From Ignavibacteria bacterium (GTDB lineage: Bacteria > Bacteroidota > Ignavibacteria > Kapaibacteriales > UBA2268), in the NCBI GenBank assembly GCA_012518115.1, contig JAAYTD010000057.1, positions 1-38,550 of the forward strand: a stretch of 38,550 bases of DNA. Reading direction: 5' to 3'. Both the position numbers and the translations under genes were made by a program. This document shows positions 2,514-24,324 of this stretch, one piece after another. Positions within the stretch are counted from its first letter, which is position 1, and each line of letters begins with the position of its first letter. The notes below the pieces were generated by a model. That model was not told the origin of the DNA. It did no database searches and saw nothing but the letters and a program-made list of their open reading frames with translations.

Positions 2514-5081
2514 ATGAAAAATATATTTCTAAATTTATTTCTATTTGTTTCTTTAAGTAGTTTATTATATGCGGACATAACAGATTTAGGGTTGCATTTT
2601 CACCATAAATCTGACGCAGAATATAAAAAAATGAGAAGAAAATACATAAATTTCATTCATTCGCCGGACACGAATTTTAATTGGCGTATTGTTGAGCAAG
2701 AAAACCGACGTTGGCGACAAGATAATATCAATAATAGATTTAACTTACCTTTGAAAAAAATATCGGGCGATATATTAAGCGGTCAGATAGCTGATGGAAA
2801 CATTACTGGTTATTGGAAAGAGCGAGGTAGTAATAATCAAGCAGGCAGAACTCATACTTCCGATATAGATTTTGAACGCAATTATATTTATACCGCGAGT
2901 GCAGGTGGAAATATTTGGCGAAAAAATATTGGTAAAGACAATTGGGAGTGTTTGAACAACAATTTTAAGATTAACAATATTGTAATGTTGAAAATCATAA
3001 AAATTGGAAACGTAAATCGCATTTTAGTTGCTTGCAAAAATGCGAAATATGTATATTATTCAGATGATGAATGTAAAACTTGGCGCTTCTCAAAAGGATT
3101 GACAAGCAAAGAAGTTACGGACAAACGCTGTATGCGCGGAGTTATCAGTTCTAATGGCACAATATATACACTTTTCGGTAACACTACATCTTCTATGATT
3201 TTAAAATCAACAGATAATGGTGAAAGTTTTGAGACAATTAAAACTATTAATACAAATGTAACTGCTATTGATATTTGGACTTCTGTTTATGAAACGACGG
3301 ATTTATATTGTTTAGTCAAAAACACTCTCTACAAAATAGATAATTTAGAAAATTCGGAGAAGATTTGTGAAATAGCTTTATTTTCGCAAAAAGCAATTCG
3401 AAAAATAATGTTAAGTGGATCAAAACACCAAAACGAGCTAAATTTAGGAGTAGCTTTATATAGAGGCGACAGTACTTTTTTTGCAACTTCACAAGACGAA
3501 GGTTCTACTTGGACAGATAGAGGTAAAGTTGCTGACTATCCATTTATGGAAAATAGCTTTGCTGTTTCTAGCGTTGACGGCAATGTTTTATATTTTGGTG
3601 GCGTTGAATTTTACTATAATGGTGGCGGTAAACAATGGATACGTCAAAATAAATGGACTGAATATTATACTATATACGGTGGCAATGAAGTAACGAATTT
3701 GCATGCTGACATACCGGGAATTAATTCTATAATAGACCCAGTGGGCAATGAATATTTGCTTATTAACACAGATGGTGGAACCTATGAATCGCGTAATTAT
3801 CTGCAAGATATTACAAATATTTCTTTGACAAATTTGAATATCAGTCAATATTATTCAACTTATACAGAAGAAGCTGATGAAAGTGTAATTTATGCGGGCA
3901 GTCAAGATCAAGGTTTGCAAGTCTCTCAAGGTACTGAAAATTCAATAGATTTCAAACAAGTTATTAGTGGCGATTATGCTCATATATGTTCAAGTGATAG
4001 TGGCAACACAATTTGGACTGTATATCCGTATATGTTGATGAATTATAGTGATATAAAAACTGATAAAACTACCCATATGAGATATAAACCGAAAAATTCT
4101 AATAATATGATTTGGCTTCCACCTATAGCACCGCTAAATAATTCCTCGCAAGTTTATATGGCAGCTAGTGATGAAACAACAGGTGCTCCGCAAATCCAAA
4201 AAGTAACAAATCTTGGCTCTGGTAAATCATCTGTTCAAGCTATAATTACTCTTAATGAATTTGCAAAAGCATATAATCCTATAACTGCACTAGCTACTAA
4301 TCCGCATGAAGAAAATAGTTTTTATTTTATGACTCATCAAGGAATGTTTCATAAGGTTATAGATCAAGAAATAGTTTTTGAAAAAGCGTTGCCACAAACA
4401 AAAGGACATTATTTATCGGGAAACAAAATTTTAGTATCAAAGTTAAATCCGAAAAGAATAATTATTGCAGGCTCATCTTACTATTCTGATGGTGTTGTTG
4501 TTACAAATGACGGTGGGCAAACTTTTGAATCTATGATTCAAGGACTGCCTAAAACAACAGTAATTGATATTGCACAAACGCCTGACGAAAAGTATTATTT
4601 TGCTGCAACTGCTTCAGGTCCTTTTGTTTATGTTGTAGATAATAAAAGATGGTATGAAATGGCGTTACCTAACTCACCTGACCAAACTTTCTGGTCGGTT
4701 CAATATCTTCCACAAAATAAAATAGTACGTTTCGGAACTTATGGACGTGGAATTTGGGATTTTAATATAGAAAGTTTTAAAAGTATAGAAAATCAAGTAA
4801 GTTTACCGGGCAACTTTAATCTAAAAGCATTACCTAATCCGATACAGTTAGAGAAAAAACAGTGCAAGCTAGTTTTTGATTTACCGCAAGCAAGTTCTTG
4901 TAATATAAGATGTTACGATGCTTTAGGAAATTTAATACAAGAAGATTTAAATTTGTTTTTCAATGCAGGCGAAAATCAATTTAATTATGTTATAAATCAT
5001 AACAATCTATCTAAAGGATGTTATTTAATTTTCTTGAAAACAGATTACTATACAAATTTTGTTAAACTTATCATTGATTAA
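2514..5081 (+). CDS. T9SS-secreted Asp-box/BNR (sortilin-like) beta-propeller protein
   Basis: Predicted secreted or cell-surface protein of 855 aa. The ATG at 2514 gives a clean signal peptide (MKNIFLNLFLFVSLSSLLYA); the longer frame from the TTG at 2481 overlaps the promoter. The body carries Asp-box motifs typical of BNR/VPS10 propellers: YSDDECKTW, STDNGESF, SQDEGSTW and TNDGGQTF. The C-terminal ~80 residues form a T9SS type A sorting domain starting near LPNPI and ending in a short basic and hydrophobic strand (NFVKLIID). Such proteins are usually glycan- or protein-binding surface factors; no catalytic residues could be assigned. It is monocistronic, with its own promoter upstream and a strong hairpin downstream. 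Substrate unknown. Confidence 0.85.
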   Translation: MKNIFLNLFLFVSLSSLLYADITDLGLHFHHKSDAEYKKMRRKYINFIHSPDTNFNWRIVEQENRRWRQDNINNRFNLPLKKISGDILSGQIADGNITGYWKERGSNNQAGRTHTSDIDFERNYIYTASAGGNIWRKNIGKDNWECLNNNFKINNIVMLKIIKIGNVNRILVACKNAKYVYYSDDECKTWRFSKGLTSKEVTDKRCMRGVISSNGTIYTLFGNTTSSMILKSTDNGESFETIKTINTNVTAIDIWTSVYETTDLYCLVKNTLYKIDNLENSEKICEIALFSQKAIRKIMLSGSKHQNELNLGVALYRGDSTFFATSQDEGSTWTDRGKVADYPFMENSFAVSSVDGNVLYFGGVEFYYNGGGKQWIRQNKWTEYYTIYGGNEVTNLHADIPGINSIIDPVGNEYLLINTDGGTYESRNYLQDITNISLTNLNISQYYSTYTEEADESVIYAGSQDQGLQVSQGTENSIDFKQVISGDYAHICSSDSGNTIWTVYPYMLMNYSDIKTDKTTHMRYKPKNSNNMIWLPPIAPLNNSSQVYMAASDETTGAPQIQKVTNLGSGKSSVQAIITLNEFAKAYNPITALATNPHEENSFYFMTHQGMFHKVIDQEIVFEKALPQTKGHYLSGNKILVSKLNPKRIIIAGSSYYSDGVVVTNDGGQTFESMIQGLPKTTVIDIAQTPDEKYYFAATASGPFVYVVDNKRWYEMALPNSPDQTFWSVQYLPQNKIVRFGTYGRGIWDFNIESFKSIENQVSLPGNFNLKALPNPIQLEKKQCKLVFDLPQASSCNIRCYDALGNLIQEDLNLFFNAGENQFNYVINHNNLSKGCYLIFLKTDYYTNFVKLIID

Positions 5082-12718: not shown

Positions 12719-13399
12719 TTATATTTTACGCATTATTATTAAATATTTAAAACCTCGCAGGTAAAAATTATAACGTCTAGCTCTATTATGCCAAAGCCCT
12801 GTGTTAGATGTTTGATTATGACGAGTAACACAAATTAAATCAACTGGTTCAAAGTACTTTTCAAGTCTTTGATAAATTAAAAATCCAGTCGGTGTAAATT
12901 TTTTCTTAATCCATTGGTCTCCAATGAGCCAAGCAATAACTTTATCTTTTTTTAAAATTCTTTTAGCCTCAATCATTACCTTTTCCAGTTCATCATAAAA
13001 CTCTGGCTTCTCACAAGAAATTTTGCCAAAACATTGTGGGTCGTCGGAATATTTAATGTTGTCTGAATAAGGACTGTCAATAAAAACAAAATCTACAGTT
13101 TCATTCTCAAGAGGAATTTGTCTTGCATCATTTTTTATAACATCAGGTCTTACGACGTTTACATCGTATCCTATTACCTTACGATTTAATTCTTTTGCAA
13201 CGTCTATAGTTGTTCCACTGCCACACATTGGGTCAACAACTAAGTCGTTTTCTTTAGTATAGCGTTGTAATAAATTCCAAATTACAAAAGCAGGAGTAAC
13301 ACCATTATACTTGTTGTTTCCGTGTGGTATTTTTCCATAATTTTGCGTTGGAAAATCCCAAAGCGTTGTTGATTCAAGAATTAAATCATTTGTTTTCAT
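12719..13399 (-). CDS. DNA adenine/N4-cytosine methyltransferase of the RM operon
   Basis: SAM-dependent amino-methyltransferase of 226 aa. Motif I is DPMCGSGTT (56-64, SAM binding). The catalytic motif IV appears as DSPY (108-111) in place of the usual DPPY or SPPY. The C-terminal part (RRYNFYLRGFKYLIIM) resembles motif VIII/X-like ends of small methylases. The start ATG overlaps the stop of the endonuclease gene by 4 nt, so translation is coupled. It is probably the second modification enzyme of the RM system. Its small size leaves little room for a target recognition domain, so it may work with the larger methylase or modify a different base. Confidence 0.82.
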   Translation of the reverse strand: MKTNDLILESTTLWDFPTQNYGKIPHGNNKYNGVTPAFVIWNLLQRYTKENDLVVDPMCGSGTTIDVAKELNRKVIGYDVNVVRPDVIKNDARQIPLENETVDFVFIDSPYSDNIKYSDDPQCFGKISCEKPEFYDELEKVMIEAKRILKKDKVIAWLIGDQWIKKKFTPTGFLIYQRLEKYFEPVDLICVTRHNQTSNTGLWHNRARRYNFYLRGFKYLIIMRKI

Positions 13400-14067
13400 T
13401 TTATCAGTTTTTTTAGATCTGCAACTAATTTATCAAACATCTTTATTTTATCACTTGTTTCAATTTTTGTTTCCGTCATAACATAACCACCATCTAAATC
13501 TTTTTCTACAATTGCTCGCCCTTTTTTAACCGGATTTTTCTTCGTCAAAGTCCCATCTTCATCTGGAGTTACAAAGAATACTCTTATATGTTTCGTGTTT
13601 TTATCAGCAGCAAGTTTTAGTTTCCAATAACCTGTTTGAGCAATTCGTTCTCTCAAAGTAACTTTTACCGATAAAGCCGCAACAACCATACTGTCTTCTG
13701 GATTAAAAACAACAATGTCAACATCTGGCATATGACAGCCACATTCACCACCAAAATCAATTAACAAATTACGCTTAACTTTACCAAGTTTTTTCGATAA
13801 ATTAGCACATTCTGTTCGTTCAAGAGAGTTGCCATTAACTACATCAAGTCCAATGCTCTTAATTTCATCTGTAATAATGTATTCAACAAGTTTTTCTAAG
13901 TTTTTTCCCTTAAAAGATCGCCAAGATTGTTCATGGTCTCTACCTCTAAAATCTTTTTTGTGCAAGGCTTTTGCTTCTTCAAAAACTTCAGAAATATGTT
14001 TATAAGCATTTTTACCAAAAAGAGTTTTCTTTTTGTCATATAAATTCTGTAAATCTTTAAATGTCAT
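13396..14067 (-). CDS. Type II restriction endonuclease, PD-(D/E)XK, BsaWI/CCGG-like
   Basis: A 223-aa protein between two methyltransferase genes, overlapping each by 4 nt. The active site can be read as P-D at 114-115 (HMPDVDIVVF) followed by S-V-K at 133-135. Glu57 in the helix SFKGKNLEKLVEYI is a candidate additional metal ligand. Directly after the Lys comes T-L-R-E-R (137-141). An R-(D/E)-R triplet next to the catalytic Lys is the known recognition signature of enzymes that read CCGG or CCNGG cores (NgoMIV, Cfr10I, EcoRII, PspGI). The KVTLRERIAQTGYWKLKL pattern recalls the BsaWI family. It should cut unmethylated foreign DNA; the exact site is unproven. Confidence 0.78.
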   Translation of the reverse strand: MTFKDLQNLYDKKKTLFGKNAYKHISEVFEEAKALHKKDFRGRDHEQSWRSFKGKNLEKLVEYIITDEIKSIGLDVVNGNSLERTECANLSKKLGKVKRNLLIDFGGECGCHMPDVDIVVFNPEDSMVVAALSVKVTLRERIAQTGYWKLKLAADKNTKHIRVFFVTPDEDGTLTKKNPVKKGRAIVEKDLDGGYVMTETKIETSDKIKMFDKLVADLKKLIK

Positions 14068-15347
14068 AACTTTTCCATTATTAAAATATATTCTGTTGGA
14101 TATACTAATTTTATATTTTTGTCAGAAATCTTTCCAAATTTTCCCGTTTTTGGATCTCGTGTTGATGGCAACATTTTTGAAGGAATTTCACGTTTTATTA
14201 CATTATGTGTTTTAAAACCAATATTATGAAACTGTTCTTGAAAGACCTCTGCATTTTTTATCTTAACTCCCTGAAATTCAGTGTTACCTATCACAATACA
14301 AGCACGTCCGCCGTGTTTCAATACACGCTTTGTTTCTTCAAAACTTTCCAACATATCAGCAAAGTAATTTTTCACTTCGTTTTGCTTTTTGTTTTTGAGC
14401 TCTGATACAATTTCATTTGCTAAATTGCTTCTTAAATCAACGTTTTCTCGATTTTTGTATGCACTACCAATAAACTTTTGACGAAATTCAGGTAAATCTT
14501 TTAAATAACCGAACCATAAAGATGGAAGTTGATGTAAGTCTGCATATTCATAAGAAGTTACATATGGTGGCGAAGTTACAATCAAACTTGCTTTTTCTGT
14601 TTCGCAATTCAAGTTTCGACTATCTCCACAACTCACATTTCTGTACAAATCTATATTTTCTTTAATATTTTCACTTAATTTTTTATCAAATTCATGATGT
14701 TTTTTTATCATCTTTTTTGACTGCCGCAAAAACAAAGTTAATGGTTCATAAACCTTCTTTTTATGATCACGTGTTGGTTTTACACTTTTTTGCAGCCAAA
14801 TTGAACATGATTTTAAAATTTGTGCAAAAGCAATCAAATAGAAATTTTGCACATTTTTGTTTTCAATCTCTAAAATTTGTGCAAAAATAACTGATAATTT
14901 ATCCTTTTGTTCGGGCAAAAACCAATAGTCTATACGTTCATTTTCAGGAATGTATTTTTGCGCCTCACTCAAAAAATAATCAAATCTGCCATCAAGTTTA
15001 TACGGCAAATCCTTTTCAAATTTCGCATATTCAGTAACTAGCTCTGTGTTTTTTATCGGCGTAGTTTTGACTTTTGAGAGCAAAAAAGCAATCTCGTTAA
15101 TGTCAGTTCCTATACCTATTCTATTATTTACAATTGCCTCCACTATAGTTGTTCCACTACCCATAAACGGATCAATAACAATATCACCCTCTTTGGAATT
15201 TTCCTTAATAAGCCGCTCGGCAAGCTGTGGAATAAACTTTGCTGGATATGTGTAATATCCGTGCGTTATATATGATGTATCTTTTATCGTTTTATCAGAA
15301 AACGAATAGGAATAGTCAATTTCAATATTGTCAAAATATTTTTTCAT
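14064..15347 (-). CDS. DNA methyltransferase, likely N4-cytosine type (SPPY)
   Basis: The 427-aa modification enzyme of the RM operon. Motif I is DPFMGSGTT (59-67), preceded by the motif X-like HGYYTYPAKFIPQLAERL. The catalytic motif is TSPPY (258-262); SPPY usually marks N4-methylcytosine enzymes. The ~190 residues between the two motifs could house the target recognition domain. It starts with ATG at 15347 inside the end of a truncated methylase frame and overlaps the endonuclease start by 4 nt. An N4C methylase next to an R-E-R endonuclease fits protection of a CCGG-containing site. Confidence 0.88.
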   Translation of the reverse strand: MKKYFDNIEIDYSYSFSDKTIKDTSYITHGYYTYPAKFIPQLAERLIKENSKEGDIVIDPFMGSGTTIVEAIVNNRIGIGTDINEIAFLLSKVKTTPIKNTELVTEYAKFEKDLPYKLDGRFDYFLSEAQKYIPENERIDYWFLPEQKDKLSVIFAQILEIENKNVQNFYLIAFAQILKSCSIWLQKSVKPTRDHKKKVYEPLTLFLRQSKKMIKKHHEFDKKLSENIKENIDLYRNVSCGDSRNLNCETEKASLIVTSPPYVTSYEYADLHQLPSLWFGYLKDLPEFRQKFIGSAYKNRENVDLRSNLANEIVSELKNKKQNEVKNYFADMLESFEETKRVLKHGGRACIVIGNTEFQGVKIKNAEVFQEQFHNIGFKTHNVIKREIPSKMLPSTRDPKTGKFGKISDKNIKLVYPTEYILIMEKL

Positions 15348-15525
15348 TATTTATTATTTTATCACACAAAATTATATTATATTCATCTGGAATTGCTTGC
15401 ATAATATCTAAGCAATCTCCTTGAATAACTTTGTTTTTAAGTTCTTCAATTGTTTTTTTCTCAATTGGATTTTGAATTTTTAATTCATGCTTTTCTTTAT
15501 TAAATTTTCTATCTAGAACATACAT
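15331..15525 (-). pseudogene. N-terminal remnant of another DNA methyltransferase
   Basis: A 64-codon frame whose centre reads KVIQGDCLDIMQAIPDEYNIILCD, the typical start of a beta-class (DPPY-first) amino-methyltransferase just before its catalytic motif. After ILCD the expected P-P-Y is absent and the frame runs into a few unrelated codons, stopping within the start of the next gene. The rest of the domain is missing, so it cannot be an active methylase. It probably marks replacement or deletion of an older modification gene at this locus. Confidence 0.65.
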
Positions 15526-15697
15526 TATTTTTCTTCCGCTACTTGAATTACTTATAACCGACTTTTTTTTAATTTAATGCTATACTTTGTAACTCTAAAA
15601 CTTATTTGTTCATTATCTATTAAAAAAATTGAATAGAATAACAATTAAAAGTACAATTAATATAATATTATTTTTTTAAAAAACAATTATGAATATA

Positions 15698-16564
15698 TTA
15701 AATTATACCAATTGAATTAACAATATTTTCCACAGAATGTTTATCCATTTTTGCAAAAGCAAACCATTTTTTACCTAAATCTTTTAATGAAGCACCAAGA
15801 TGATACACTTCCGTATTATCTATTATAATAAAACGATCATGGCTTTGGGTAAATGTTTTTATTTCAAAATTGCCGTATTGAGCATTGACTTTCTGCACAT
15901 CAAGTTGTAATTGTTTGCTTATCTTTTTTGTCAGTAACAAAACTTTTACATTTTTGTTTTTCTTTGCTAAATGTGTCAATGTGGTTTCATCTATATAGTT
16001 GTCAATTAGCACGATTTTATTTTTGGCAGATCGAATAATCTTTGAAGCCAATTCGTAAGCATCAAAAATTTGTCCCTCAAAAAATACGCCTTGAGTAGGC
16101 AATTCGCTTGATTTTATTTGGAAAGAAATTTCATCTACTCTCTCAGCAAGTTTTTCCACTGTACTTTCAACACGATTCATTCTTTGGTTAAGTGCATAAC
16201 CTTTTAACAAATAATCTTTTAAAACATTAGTAGCCCAAATTCTAAATTTTGTACCCTGTTTCGATTTTACTCTGTAACCTACTGAAATAATAACATCAAG
16301 GTTGTAGTACTCTACTTGTTGAGTTTGCATTTTCCCTTTAATTGCACCATGTATAGTGGTTGTCGCAAATTTTGCGACAACCAGTTCTTTAGCCAATTCT
16401 CCTTCATTAAAAATATTATTAATATGCTTACCAATAGTTTTTATATCTCTTCCAAAGAGTAATGCCAATTGCTGACGGTTTAGCCAAACAGTGTCATTTT
16501 CTAGCCTTACTTCAATACGCTCTGACAATTCATCAGATTGATATAGTATTAATTCATTACTCAT
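15698..16564 (-). CDS. RhuM-family DNA-binding protein fused to a PLD-like C-terminal domain
   Basis: A 288-aa protein. Residues ~1-130 match the Virulence_RhuM family: DTVWLNRQQLALLFGRDIKTIGKHINNIF (HTH-like), VVAKFATTT, YYNLDVIISVGYRVKSKQGTKFRIWAT. RhuM-type genes are frequent on phages, pathogenicity islands and beside defence genes. A helical linker is followed by a C-terminal domain (about 160-288) with VLIDNYIDETTL, VLLLTKK and SHDRFIIIDNTEVYHLGASL. This resembles a phospholipase D-like fold with one incomplete H-x-K-type motif (H-D-R). The function is unknown; DNA binding is inferred from the N-terminus. It has a separate promoter region of about 100 bp and lies 172 bp (AT-rich, nothing recognised) from the methylase genes. 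Confidence 0.75.
   Translation of the reverse strand: MSNELILYQSDELSERIEVRLENDTVWLNRQQLALLFGRDIKTIGKHINNIFNEGELAKELVVAKFATTTIHGAIKGKMQTQQVEYYNLDVIISVGYRVKSKQGTKFRIWATNVLKDYLLKGYALNQRMNRVESTVEKLAERVDEISFQIKSSELPTQGVFFEGQIFDAYELASKIIRSAKNKIVLIDNYIDETTLTHLAKKNKNVKVLLLTKKISKQLQLDVQKVNAQYGNFEIKTFTQSHDRFIIIDNTEVYHLGASLKDLGKKWFAFAKMDKHSVENIVNSIGII
16357..16383. repeat. 27-bp palindrome inside the RhuM gene
   Basis: Two 13-nt arms (TGGTTGTCGCAAA and its complement) surround one central base at 16370. The palindrome falls in the codons for VVAKFATT, a stretch that is itself conserved in RhuM proteins. Confidence 0.7.
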
Positions 16565-20266: not shown

Positions 20267-21424
20267 CTATTTCTGAAACGGCGAAATACTTCCAAGAACC
20301 AAACTTTGACTAGCGCCGGTAATATGCGGAACATTGCCCGCCACCCCATTTAAGGTCAAAAATCCTAAAAATGCAAAAGCTATAGCTTCATAAAATTGAC
20401 TGGAAATACCTTTAAAATCAGACGATAAAACAGTAAATTCTTCGCCCAATTTTGCTTTAAGTAGCTCCATAAGAAAAAGATTTTCAGCACCACCACCTTT
20501 AACAACTACTTCACCACCTTTGCAACAGTAATTTATAGCATTTGCTATAGTTATCACTGTTAGTTCTGTCAATGTTCGCACTGCATCACAACTAACTAGC
20601 TCGCTTTCTATGTTCAATTCCTTTACAGTATTTTCAAATAAATTTAGATTAAAAATCTCGCGTCCACAAGATTTTGGAGGAGCTCTATGAAAATAATCTA
20701 TAGATAATAATTTTTTTAATAATTCTTGGTTCACCTTCCCTGTTCTTGCTATATCGCCGTTTTTATCAAAAGGAATATTAAAGTATTTTTGAACATATTC
20801 ATCTATTAAGACATTTCCACAACCTGTATCAAAAGCTATAATATCTTGCAAGTTAGCATTTGGAGGAATAAAAGTTATATTCGCCATTCCACCGATATTT
20901 AATGCTATTACATTTTTTTCAGATTTTAAGAAATAAAAATCAAAGATTGGAACAAGCGGAGCTCCTTGCCCACCTAAAATTAAATCGGCAGAACGAAAAT
21001 CAGAAACTACCGTTTTTTCAATTAAAACAGAAAGAGCCGAAGCATTTGTCAATTGCAAAGTTGAACGTGTTTCCTCGCCTGCAAACTCTTTGTTTTCAGG
21101 ATTATGCCAAACCGTCTGACCATGAATAGCTACAGCATCTATAGAACGAAAATCTAACCGATTATTCTCTACAAATTTCTTTATACATTTTGCAAAAAAC
21201 ACAGAAAGAGCAAAATGTAATTGTGATATACTTGAAGTCGTAGCTATGTCGTCAATCGCTCTTTTTATCTCAACTTGTAATTTTAATGGAAAAGGAAATC
21301 TATCACTAGCTAGTAAGTTAAAATTATACTTTTTATTCTTATCAACAAAAAAATTGGCAGCAACAATATCTAAGTTATCTATAGAAGTGCCTGTCATTAT
21401 TCCTATAATAGTTTTATTTTGCAT
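20267..21424 (-). CDS. anmK: Anhydro-N-acetylmuramic acid kinase
   Basis: Peptidoglycan recycling: converts 1,6-anhydroMurNAc and ATP to MurNAc-6-phosphate. Motifs are IGIMTGTSIDNLDIV (ATP/substrate site), VAIHGQTVWHNP, VSDFRSADLILGGQGAPLVP and NIGGMANITFI, in normal order and length (386 aa). The start is set at the ATG at 21424 rather than the in-frame ATG at 21454: the latter lies within the -7 box at 21452-21459, and homologues begin just before the GTSxD motif. No murQ or other recycling gene is adjacent. A 107-bp AT-rich gap separates it from ugd. Confidence 0.92.
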   Translation of the reverse strand: MQNKTIIGIMTGTSIDNLDIVAANFFVDKNKKYNFNLLASDRFPFPLKLQVEIKRAIDDIATTSSISQLHFALSVFFAKCIKKFVENNRLDFRSIDAVAIHGQTVWHNPENKEFAGEETRSTLQLTNASALSVLIEKTVVSDFRSADLILGGQGAPLVPIFDFYFLKSEKNVIALNIGGMANITFIPPNANLQDIIAFDTGCGNVLIDEYVQKYFNIPFDKNGDIARTGKVNQELLKKLLSIDYFHRAPPKSCGREIFNLNLFENTVKELNIESELVSCDAVRTLTELTVITIANAINYCCKGGEVVVKGGGAENLFLMELLKAKLGEEFTVLSSDFKGISSQFYEAIAFAFLGFLTLNGVAGNVPHITGASQSLVLGSISPFQK

Positions 21425-21451
21425 TTTTATCAAAAAAATTAACTTAAAAAG

Positions 21452-21459
21452 CAAATATA
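21452..21459 (-). promoter_or_regulatory. -7 box for anmK
   Basis: CAAATATA on the + strand, i.e. TATATTTG on the coding strand, a full match to TAnnTTTG. Transcription would begin near 21445, about 20 nt before the chosen anmK start. No clear TTTG was found at -33. Confidence 0.5.
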
Positions 21460-21547: not shown

Positions 21548-21668
21548 TATATTTACTAAACAATAATGTGTCAAAATAATATTTTTTTCACTTATCAAAA
21601 CGCAAGAATAAAGGAGGCTTGCAAACATGGAATTTAGCGAGAGCCATGAGAAAATAAAGGGTAGCTGA
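21548..21668 (+). promoter_or_regulatory. Structured leader of the lipoprotein pair (two hairpins)
   Basis: A weak -7 box, TATATTTA (21548-21555), would start a transcript with a ~140-nt leader. It contains hairpin 1, GCAAG (21602-21606)/CTTGC (21618-21622), with the perfect Shine-Dalgarno AAGGAGG (21611-21617) in its loop. Hairpin 2 is CATGG (21626-21630)/CCATG (21644-21648) and holds an ATG. No riboswitch class was recognised. A run GAAAATATTTTTT follows at 21667-21679. Confidence 0.45.
21627..21668 (+). CDS. Possible 13-residue leader peptide (upstream ORF)
   Basis: ATG at 21627 opens a 13-codon frame (MEFSESHEKIKGS) ending in TGA at 21666-21668, 36 nt before the first lipoprotein gene. 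AAGGAGG, the best Shine-Dalgarno in the window, lies 9 nt upstream, an ideal spacing. Bacteroidota genes usually lack such sites, which makes it stand out. Both elements sit within small hairpins. Whether it is translated is unknown, and a chance short frame remains possible. Confidence 0.35.
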   Translation: MEFSESHEKIKGS

Positions 21669-21704: not shown

Positions 21705-22379
21705 ATGGAACATTATAAAAAAAATATATTATCATCGTTGATGCTTAGCATATTATTACTATTTTCATTAAGTTTTACTAGCTGCTTAAAAGATGACAAT
21801 ATTATAAATTCAGAAGTAAATAATAATGATATTGAGTATTATATTTACGACAAAAATGGTGAGGAAATACATTATGCTAAGTGCAAGCATAGAGTATTAA
21901 TTTATATAAACCATGAAGAAAATTTGAATGAAGTTTTAGATGAACTTAAAAGTAAAGACTTAATTTCTCCTACAGACATTTCTTATAGTTCTAATAGACT
22001 ATATGCAAAAATAGATTCTACAAGAACTGATGTTGTTTCACGTATCAAATCTACTAAAAATGTAGAAAGTGTTCATTATATGGTACAACCGATAGAAATA
22101 GTACCAAATGATGATGATTTTTTAGCTGCAAGTAATACTATTATTTTAATGACTAAATCAGATGTTGACGTTAATGAAATTTTAGAAAAGATTGGAATAT
22201 CTTCTTTAATTGATAAAGTTGAACATGCTCTTTTTACAACTGCACCTATTTATCATCTCTATTTTATAACTACAGATTTAGATTTTTATAAAATTTCAAG
22301 AGATTTATATAAAACTGGATTATGTGTATATGCACAACCAAATTTTTGGATGCATATAAAACACCCTTATCCTTTTTAA
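21705..22379 (+). CDS. Lipoprotein with two propeptide-like modules, copy 1
   Basis: A 224-aa predicted lipoprotein. The signal sequence ends in the lipobox LSFTSC (Cys27), followed by KDDN; an acidic or charged tail after Cys often marks surface-exposed lipoproteins in Bacteroidota. After a linker come two similar alpha/beta modules. The first (about 62-131) reads HRVLIYINHEENLNEVLDELK ... LYAKIDSTRTDVVSRIKSTKNVESVHYMVQP. The second (about 145-218) ends DLDFYKISRDLYKTGLCVYAQPNF. That ending closely resembles the prodomain ends of Bacteroidota subtilases (ANxLYExGLFEYAEPNF-type), but no protease domain follows. A role as a protease inhibitor or a binding protein is inferred only from this. 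No ribosome site is evident directly upstream. Confidence 0.75.
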   Translation: MEHYKKNILSSLMLSILLLFSLSFTSCLKDDNIINSEVNNNDIEYYIYDKNGEEIHYAKCKHRVLIYINHEENLNEVLDELKSKDLISPTDISYSSNRLYAKIDSTRTDVVSRIKSTKNVESVHYMVQPIEIVPNDDDFLAASNTIILMTKSDVDVNEILEKIGISSLIDKVEHALFTTAPIYHLYFITTDLDFYKISRDLYKTGLCVYAQPNFWMHIKHPYPF

Positions 22380-22397
22380 TTTTTAGGAGATAAAGAA

Positions 22398-23078
22398 ATG
22401 GAACATTATAAAAAAAGTATATTATCATCATTGATGCTTAGCATATTATTGCTATTTTTATTAAGTTTTACTAGCTGCTTAAAAGATGATAATATTGTAA
22501 ATTCAGAAGTAAATAATAATGATATTGAGTATTATATTTATGACCAGAATGGTGAGGAAATACATTATGCTAAGTGCAAGCATAGAATTGTAATTTATGT
22601 CAAATATGAAGAAAAACTTAATGAAGTTTTAAATGAAATTAAAAGCAAAAACTTCAAAGGTTTAATTTCTATTGGTGCTTCTTCTAGTTCTAATATTCTA
22701 TATGCAAAAATAGATTCTACAAGAACAGATATTGTTAAAAATATTAAAACTATTAAAAATGTAGAAAGCGTTCATTATATGGTACAATCAATAGAGATAG
22801 CACCAAGTGAAGATGAATTTTTAGTTACAAGTAATGCTATTAATTTAAAGACTAAATCAGATATTGACATTAATGAAGTTTTAAAAAAACTAGAACTAAC
22901 TTCTTTAGTTGATAAAATTGTAGATCGTCCTTTTACAGATGAGCCTATTTATACTGTTTATTTTACAACAACAGATTTAGATTTTTATAAACTCTCACGA
23001 GATTTATATAAAACTGGATTATGTGTATATGCAAGCCCTGATTTTTTGATGCAATTAAAACACCCTTATCCTTTTTAA
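22398..23078 (+). CDS. Lipoprotein with two propeptide-like modules, copy 2
   Basis: Tandem paralogue of the preceding gene (226 aa, roughly 70% identical by eye), with lipobox LSFTSC at the same place. The signal peptide, the linker and the segments FYK.SRDLYKTGLCVYA and KHPYPF are nearly identical. The middle of each module varies more (KSKNFKGLISIGASSSS versus KSKDLISPTDISYSS). It has a good ribosome site, TAGGAGATAAAG, before the ATG, and sits 18 bp after copy 1 in an evident operon. Divergence concentrated in the presumed interaction surface, with constant ends, suggests diversification after duplication. Function unknown. Confidence 0.75.
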   Translation: MEHYKKSILSSLMLSILLLFLLSFTSCLKDDNIVNSEVNNNDIEYYIYDQNGEEIHYAKCKHRIVIYVKYEEKLNEVLNEIKSKNFKGLISIGASSSSNILYAKIDSTRTDIVKNIKTIKNVESVHYMVQSIEIAPSEDEFLVTSNAINLKTKSDIDINEVLKKLELTSLVDKIVDRPFTDEPIYTVYFTTTDLDFYKLSRDLYKTGLCVYASPDFLMQLKHPYPF

Positions 23079-23163
23079 TTTTTAGGAGATAAAAACAGAA
23101 TAGTAATTCATTTGACATATAAAGAAACATACAAAAAAATAGCTTGCTAAAATATTAGCAACT

Positions 23164-23235: not shown

Positions 23236-24324
23236 ATGCAATCAAAAATAAGTGATACAGAAGCTATGTCTAGATGTTTAGAATTAGCATTAAATGGTTC
23301 TGGTTCTGTTAGTCCAAATCCATTAGTTGGTTCTGTAATAATCAAAGACGGAGTTATTATTTCTGAAGCTTGGCATGAAGAATATGGCGGTTTACATGCT
23401 GAAATAAATGCTATTAATAAAAGTGGGTTAAGCTCCTTTGAAGGTATGACCTTAGCAGTAAATTTAGAACCTTGTTCACATTTTGGAAAACAAGCGCCTT
23501 GCGTTGATACTATTATTGAGAAAAAATTTTCGCGTGTTATCATAGGAATGAAAGATCCTAATCCTTTAGTTTCTGGTAATGGTATAGAAAAATTGAAAAA
23601 AGCAGGTATAGCTGTTGAAGTCGGCATATTAGAAAAAGATTGCAAATGGATAAATCGTTTTTTTTGCAAGAAGATGGAAACCAATTTCCCATTTATTGTT
23701 ATGAAAGTAGCTCAATCTTTAGACGGTTGCATAGCCACAATAACAGGCGAATCAAAATGGATTACTTGTGAAGAAAGTCGCAGGCGTACTCATATTTTAA
23801 GACACGAATGTGATGCTATTCTTGTTGGCATTAATACTGTTTTAGAAGATAATCCGATTTTAGATACACGACATATTGGCAATATCAAGCTCCCTACAGT
23901 AATAATTTTAGATACAAATCTACGTTTCCCATTAAATTCAAATCTAGCTTTAAGTTCAACAAAACGTAAAGTTATAGTTGTTCACTCAAGCGATAATAAA
24001 GAAAGAATAGAAGAGCTAGCTAGCGCCAACATAAATTTAATTTATGTTGAAAATATGTTTGATTTGAAGAATATTTTGGAACTTATTGCAACTCAAGAAA
24101 ATCTTATTTCTGTACTTGTCGAAGGTGGTTCTCATATTTTCAGTTCTTTTGTAAGTTCAAATCTTATCGATGAATTACATCTCTTTGTCGCACCAATTAT
24201 TATAGGCAACGGAAAGCGTACTTTTTCAACAGTAGAAACATTAAAGCTTTCGGAAAGTTATAAATTACGCCTTGTAAGCAGCACAAAAAGCGGAACAGAC
24301 GAACATATTTTTTTAATGAAATAA
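23236..24324 (+). CDS. ribD: Bifunctional riboflavin biosynthesis deaminase/reductase
   Basis: Deaminates 2,5-diamino-6-ribosylamino-pyrimidinone phosphate and then reduces the ribose side chain, two steps of riboflavin synthesis. The 362-aa protein has the N-terminal cytidine-deaminase-type Zn site: HAEINAI (His54, Glu56) and LEPCSHFGKQAPC (Cys80, Cys89). The NADPH-dependent reductase domain follows (about 150-362: VMKVAQSLDGCIAT, GINTVLEDNP, VLVEGGSHIFSSF). It stands alone, with its own promoter and a terminator shared with gdh. No FMN riboswitch was seen in the 5' region. Confidence 0.95.
   Translation: MQSKISDTEAMSRCLELALNGSGSVSPNPLVGSVIIKDGVIISEAWHEEYGGLHAEINAINKSGLSSFEGMTLAVNLEPCSHFGKQAPCVDTIIEKKFSRVIIGMKDPNPLVSGNGIEKLKKAGIAVEVGILEKDCKWINRFFCKKMETNFPFIVMKVAQSLDGCIATITGESKWITCEESRRRTHILRHECDAILVGINTVLEDNPILDTRHIGNIKLPTVIILDTNLRFPLNSNLALSSTKRKVIVVHSSDNKERIEELASANINLIYVENMFDLKNILELIATQENLISVLVEGGSHIFSSFVSSNLIDELHLFVAPIIIGNGKRTFSTVETLKLSESYKLRLVSSTKSGTDEHIFLMK

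Follow-up and report, generated by a model that had tools for sequence, protein, structure and literature searches.

The locus analyzed here raises the question of what two adjacent genes for short lipoproteins do, when their products look like the double prodomain of a subtilase with no protease attached. Bacteroidota of the gut, mouth, and sea have secreted subtilases in abundance, and, potempins aside, little is to our knowledge known about how these bacteria protect their own surface from them. The pair lies in the window, by which we mean the whole 38,550-nt stretch of DNA that was analyzed, and which is one contig (C39) of a 2.48-Mb genome in 92 contigs. An earlier note on this DNA had described the pair as standalone lipoproteins, with no protease domain in the proteins or elsewhere in the window. 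This description held, as both open reading frames are intact (Table 1), each protein has a lipobox ending in SFTSC, and no Peptidase_S8 domain was matched anywhere on the contig. The two genes, which are separated by 18 nt, encode proteins with 73% identity, both of which have the C-terminal motif DLYKTGLCVYA-(Q/S)-P-(N/D)-F, and in both the stop codon directly follows the prodomain. The position of the stop codon, together with the lack of an S8 match on the contig, identifies them as free-standing relatives rather than as zymogen prodomains. The Shine–Dalgarno stretch tttttaggagataaa recurs 3′ of each gene, and a near copy of the intergenic stretch is located 3′ of gene 2 (23079–23096), which fits the expectation from tandem duplication. 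In both proteins the lipobox cysteine begins the sequence C-L-K-D-D-N, which fits the optimal surface-export signal of Capnocytophaga lipoproteins, C-X-K-(D/E)2-X (PMC5080379), a rule that was set in another genus. The earlier proposal that the proteins are surface-anchored is plausible in view of this signal, from which we infer the exposure itself; both would be outer-membrane lipoproteins, probably facing outward. Elsewhere in the window, part of a DNA methylase (PF01555) is encoded in a cluster together with a protein of the RhuM family (PF13310); this cluster (12719–16564) is possibly a mobile or restriction island.

Table 1. Positions of the lipoprotein gene pair, its predicted parts, and its surroundings in the window
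Feature	Position	Strand	Remarks
anmK, flanking gene	20267–21454	minus	
72-nt leader element	21595–21666	plus	own-genome search: five identical copies, one at 96%
Free-standing tandem-prodomain lipoprotein 1	21705–22379	plus	224 aa, intact ORF; prodomain-only profile E 3.5e-9; AlphaFold2 model
Putative lipoprotein signal peptide, protein 1	21705–21785	plus	lipobox SFTSC, lipidated Cys27 (21783–21785), then L-K-D-D-N
Predicted module 1, protein 1 (beta hairpin + beta-alpha-beta-alpha-beta)	21837–22088	plus	model, mature residues 18–101
Predicted module 2, protein 1	22116–22355	plus	model residues 111–190; PC1/3 prodomain matches there
C-terminal tail, protein 1	22356–22376	plus	C-termini compared with subtilases
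Intergenic stretch with Shine–Dalgarno tttttaggagataaagaa	22380–22397	plus	sequence
Free-standing tandem-prodomain lipoprotein 2	22398–23078	plus	226 aa, intact ORF; prodomain-only profile 28.5 bits vs. at most 12.3 for shuffles
Putative lipidated Cys27, protein 2	22476–22478	plus	sequence
ribD, flanking gene	23236–24324	plus	

The relationship of the window proteins to subtilases was analyzed by profile searches in both directions. In the search of the own genome, a profile of 17 subtilase prodomains matched protein 1 with an E value of 3.5e-9 and two paralogs on contig C2 with E values of 8.5e-8 and 5.3e-7, and it also matched the free-standing proteins of two other genomes, G045 (E 1.9e-19) and G229 (E 1.3e-11); the profile by which these 17 prodomains had first been gathered had the window proteins among its members. 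With an independently collected, narrower prodomain set (A7), the window pair reached E values of only 0.9–2 (for 100,000 sequences). The scores against the prodomain-only profile were 37.8 bits for protein 1 and 28.5 bits for protein 2, while the maximum in 10,000 shuffles was 12.3 bits. When profiles were compared with each other using hhalign, the free-standing and the subtilase prodomains were aligned over 175 columns (98.8%, E 4.5e-17). In the reverse direction, a profile of five free-standing proteins matched the prodomain of a subtilase in a relative (L023, E 7.3e-5), where the reading frame is broken between the prodomain and the catalytic domain, and a wider free-standing profile picked up the N-termini of about 20 subtilases. 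Searches of Pfam and NCBIfam with the window proteins gave no match above chance, and neither did the PDB searched by sequence, using a single protein or a 41-row profile. The MEROPS I9/Pfam Inhibitor_I9 and PF22148 models did not match the window proteins, and genuine subtilase prodomains of the same type were also left unmatched by them. Judged by the shuffles, the resemblance of both proteins to subtilase prodomains goes far beyond chance.

The fold was predicted with AlphaFold2 from 41 rows, and the resulting model (pLDDT 80, pTM 0.74) consists of two beta-alpha-beta modules, whose strands and helices fall within residues 36–100 and 112–190 of the mature protein. The two similar modules that had been proposed from the letters are both clear in this model, while the similarity of the two halves in sequence is weak: with a profile of diverse prodomains they aligned in register at P 1e-4 and a probability of 57%, but not significantly with a narrower profile set. 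When the best 1000 Foldseek chains were re-ranked by VIA-align, the best match among them was 3wqb_B (Z 7.8, 95 residues, 2.9 Å), which is ORF2, a protein that exists separately from an Aeromonas sobria subtilase and both chaperones and inhibits it, and PC1/3 prodomains matched module 2 at Z 6.3. Foldseek alone placed ACT and RRM folds on top and did not single out prodomains, which VIA-align and a control model did. A genuine subtilase prodomain from Parabacteroides served as the control; its model (pLDDT 91) had its elements in the same order, and its top four matches were the PC1/3 prodomain (Z 8.9, 8.4, and 8.0) and ORF2 (7.9), followed by a next match at 6.5. Thus, prodomain structures are among the matches of both models. 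Against the window model, ACT domains reached Z 7.3, and common ferredoxin-like folds span a similar range. Such scores of ACT and RRM domains, which come nearly as high, and the empty Pfam and NCBIfam searches could be taken to mean that an unrelated two-domain ferredoxin-like lipoprotein, for example an ACT-like one, resembles prodomains by chance. This explanation, to which we give almost no credence, is in our view refuted by the profile searches in both directions, and the shuffles also speak against it. The C-terminus of protein 1 also lies approximately at the transition from prodomain to catalytic domain in subtilases. Taken together, the profiles, the fold prediction with its control, and the homologs described below make it close to certain that the window proteins are tandem-type Bacteroidota subtilase prodomains on lipoproteins, without a protease, as the earlier note had supposed. 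The entire mature part would then be what in a Bacteroidota subtilase (S8) forms the N-terminal tandem prodomain, here separated from the protease.

Further relatives are encoded in the own genome. A second tandem pair of free-standing genes (57%–60% identical) is located at the end of contig C2, and a fifth protease-less protein, on contig C19, consists of a prodomain match (E 8.2e-8) followed by a weak T9SS-type tail (E 0.0028, below the cut-off). The genome also encodes seven S8 proteins (nine matches), in each of which the catalytic domain is preceded by an N-terminal extension of at least about 100 residues, and one of the seven, on contig C3, bears a tandem prodomain of the window type. 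Among the four copies of the window and C2 pairs the dN/dS values were 0.50–0.63, and synonymous exceeded non-synonymous change (Fisher p 0.04 to 0.0005), which means that the four free-standing copies are under purifying selection. For the second part of the two window copies dN/dS was 1.2, a value that results from few changes and on which we base no claim of positive selection. The conservation among the four paralogs was highest in residues 187–205, which comprise the last helix and the motif, and lowest in residues 85–97 and ∼133–181, and the previous remark that placed the largest differences between the paralogs in the central parts of the modules was therefore roughly right. These central parts, as the earlier note proposed, may be a binding surface.

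These copies could alternatively be truncated subtilase genes undergoing decay. One C2 copy and the subtilase gene are 96% identical in their 5′ regions and first codons, which indicates that recombination between them did occur, and a shortened prodomain gene is known elsewhere (L047). On the other hand, all four open reading frames are intact with dN/dS below 1, the lipobox has no counterpart in the subtilase, tandem duplication took place at two loci, and there are several protease-less lineages. The view of the copies as remnants is disfavored by these data, and we regard it as very improbable.

The genomic context of the copies suggests a connection to a second group of lipoproteins. The 72-nt leader element sits upstream not only of the window pair but also of the C19 prodomain gene, a lipoprotein fragment on contig C16, and a lipoprotein on contig C26, and it is present at two further contig ends; several contigs of this genome break at it. 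The leader contains a strong Shine–Dalgarno sequence and a 13-codon mini-ORF (21627–21668), the frame of which is not maintained in all copies, and an Rfam search with the leader gave no match above threshold. Between the ends of C2 and C3, a 127-bp prefix is identical, and the identity across 262 bp is 96%. This shared sequence is the end of a lipoprotein gene, X, and it runs 4 bases into the start of the subtilase gene on C3 and into that of the free-standing gene on C2; gene X, with 97% identical DNA, precedes both the C3 subtilase and the C2 pair. A profile made from lipoproteins encoded directly upstream of subtilases at three loci (L112, L118, and L173) matched X (E 2.5e-7) and the C26 lipoprotein (E 1.2e-4). 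Thus, the prodomain proteins and this subtilase-associated lipoprotein family appear to be under common control. The family consists of small, uncharacterized lipoproteins; its members lie directly upstream of tandem-prodomain subtilases (L112, ∼3348–3930; L118, ∼371–840; L173, ∼3184–3700), where the two genes at some loci overlap by 4 bases, and also at contig ends of L009 and L061, and one member has faint similarity to the dentilisin subunit PrcB (E 0.019). Possibly, this is a second, potempin-like inhibitor family. A lipoprotein encoded next to the free-standing gene of G045 resembled the family, and was rejected as a member because its profile match was not significant.

Protease-less tandem prodomains recur across Bacteroidota. 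They were found as lipoproteins in G045, G229, G402 (two), G373, G389, G620, G247, G681, G197, G121, and G695, and with T9SS-like tails in G068, G060, and Prevotella (L167); in these cases the stop codon was read and no S8 domain lay downstream, and in G247 a complete, separate subtilase gene then follows. Two more loci (L160 and L171) contain candidate free-standing prodomain genes. Short-frame matches in G513, G408, G401, G501, G572, G507, G485, G570, and G420 were rejected, as they were subtilase genes truncated at contig ends or interrupted by a frameshift or by in-frame stop codons. A subtilase gene of the same family in Tannerella forsythia ATCC 43037 (contig091, L117) has an in-frame stop inside the prodomain and looks broken. 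On a 52-row tree the free-standing label had to change no fewer than five times on branches with good support, and a single clade of all 17 free-standing rows was rejected (AU p 0.0002), while a single clade for the 11 lipoproteins alone was not (p 0.08). The four own-genome copies are on a long branch with 2.5 changes per column, and in G045 and G229 a free-standing protein is present together with S8 genes, none of which has the same prodomain type. Both observations, and the occurrence of the family with T9SS-like tails, would fit a prodomain fold that was exapted for another surface role, such as adhesion, ligand binding, or scaffolding of a complex, with no protease partner. We consider this rather improbable, given that the proteins repeatedly occur next to subtilases and that the helix and C-terminal motif preceding the cleavage junction are retained as the best conserved part.

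The adjacency to subtilases was observed at four loci, where 27–107 bp separate a protease-less tandem prodomain gene from the gene of a subtilase. The clearest of these is G247, where a free-standing lipoprotein gene ends 27 bp upstream of the gene of a T9SS-sorted subtilase that carries its own homologous prodomain. At L121 and L147 proteins with T9SS-like tails are encoded 63 and 30 bp upstream of a subtilase, respectively, the L121 subtilase having its own prodomain and the L147 protease-less protein two successive tandem prodomains, and in Prevotella (L167) the prodomain protein is encoded 107 bp downstream. Additionally, a single-prodomain lipoprotein of G618 (PF22148, E 8.9e-13) is encoded immediately upstream of an S8 gene. 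A BsuPI lipoprotein (PF12690, E 8.5e-9) is encoded downstream of the free-standing prodomain gene in G229, and a borderline BsuPI match (E 1.5e-4, just under the cut-off) was found near such a gene in G402. The G229 locus (L060, 3900–10900) is an integron-cassette-array-like region of many small genes, several of which follow a repeated stretch reading MQGRYT/LQGRYT, and it contains both the prodomain gene and the BsuPI gene. In two species (G373 and G389; L102 and L103) the prodomain lipoprotein is encoded directly upstream of a lipoprotein resembling an M28-type peptidase. The L121 record, labeled Treponema sp., bears a Bacteroidota-type subtilase and T9SS-like tail, and its bin label is probably wrong.

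Because related protease-less prodomains adjoin subtilase genes, inhibition is the best-supported function, and the window genes probably encode surface-tethered free prodomains that inhibit subtilases in trans, even though no subtilase adjoins the window pair itself and G045 and G229 lack a subtilase of this prodomain type. The earlier note had also suggested that they could be decoys. By analogy to subtilase prodomains and free-standing propeptide inhibitors, module 2 would pack on the catalytic domain of the subtilase and the C-terminal tail would occupy the active-site cleft, in the manner of propeptide–subtilase complexes (PMC6993865). The targets of such a tethered inhibitor could be the own T9SS-secreted subtilases or foreign ones. 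A related explanation is that the lipoprotein aids the folding of a subtilase in trans, as ORF2 does, with only transient inhibition. The first rank of ORF2 among the structures matched by the window model, its double activity as chaperone and inhibitor, and the adjacency of prodomain genes to subtilases in relatives agree with this explanation. Nevertheless, it seems unlikely, because the N-terminal extensions on all seven S8 proteins found in the own genome, and the prodomains on the subtilases encoded next to the free genes in G247 and L121, leave no client in need of an external chaperone. The local subtilases having their own prodomains thus favors inhibition, and an outer-membrane lipid anchor is better suited to controlling a mature enzyme than to folding.

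Surface-tethered inhibition could be part of a wider arrangement, which we put forward tentatively. It would be a Bacteroidota-wide, repeatedly evolved surface system, in which lipid-anchored or T9SS-tailed free prodomains control secreted subtilases in trans, the own-genome prodomain proteins and the subtilase-upstream lipoprotein family share a leader, and tandem duplication lets the copies diverge so as to meet different proteases, whether own or foreign. If inhibition in trans is correct, a tethered free prodomain is a simple answer to the problem of self-shielding from secreted subtilases, the free-standing propeptide inhibitors are extended from mainly eukaryotes to a lipid-anchored, tandem bacterial form, and a set of lipoproteins left blank by Pfam and NCBIfam receives a name. 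The pairs of G247, L121, L147, and L167 offer testable protease–inhibitor combinations.

Several known systems resemble the window pair in part. One is the tandem prodomain of Bacteroidota S8 proteases, such as those of Parabacteroides sp. Marseille-P3160 (L112) and of the own genome (C3), with which the window proteins share the two modules, the order of strands and helices, and the C-terminal motif (YESGLFxxAEPDF-type), while they differ in having no catalytic domain and a lipobox in place of a plain signal peptide. ORF2 of A. sobria is likewise a free-standing bacterial partner of a subtilase; it inhibits its protease with an IC50 of 84 nM and can act as chaperone and inhibitor (PMC5638518). 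However, ORF2 serves a propeptide-deficient protease (ASP) encoded by the adjacent gene, whereas the own-genome subtilases have their own prodomains and no such client adjoins the window pair, on the contig of which no S8 gene was found. The potempins of T. forsythia are small lipoproteins encoded directly upstream of the secreted proteases that they inhibit (PMC7296668). The G247 lipoprotein and subtilase have the same gene arrangement, while the window pair lies between anmK and ribD with no adjacent protease. The potempin fold differs from the prodomain fold. BsuPI (PF12690) is a proteinase-inhibitor domain, like the role proposed here, but it is a different domain and thus a neighbor rather than a relative. 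Free-standing inhibitors of the I9 propeptide type are known from fungi, plants, and parasites, namely Pleurotus POIA1, the yeast proteinase B inhibitor, Arabidopsis SPI-1, Toxoplasma MIC5, and Plasmodium SUB1-ProM (PMC6993865). The window proteins, according to their model, would share with POIA1, SPI-1, and SUB1-ProM a subtilase propeptide fold made as a separate gene product, and SUB1-ProM is likewise encoded beside subtilase genes; in contrast to these eukaryotic inhibitors, the window proteins are bacterial, consist of two modules, have a lipid anchor, and occur in several copies. The suggestion that the family had not been described agrees with Pfam, NCBIfam, and the literature searched, which lay mostly outside subscription journals and in which no description of tandem, lipid-anchored Bacteroidota prodomains was found, but it does not extend to free-standing prodomain inhibitors as such, which are already known, mostly in eukaryotes. 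Hence, what appears to be new here is the tandem, lipid-anchored, multicopy bacterial form.
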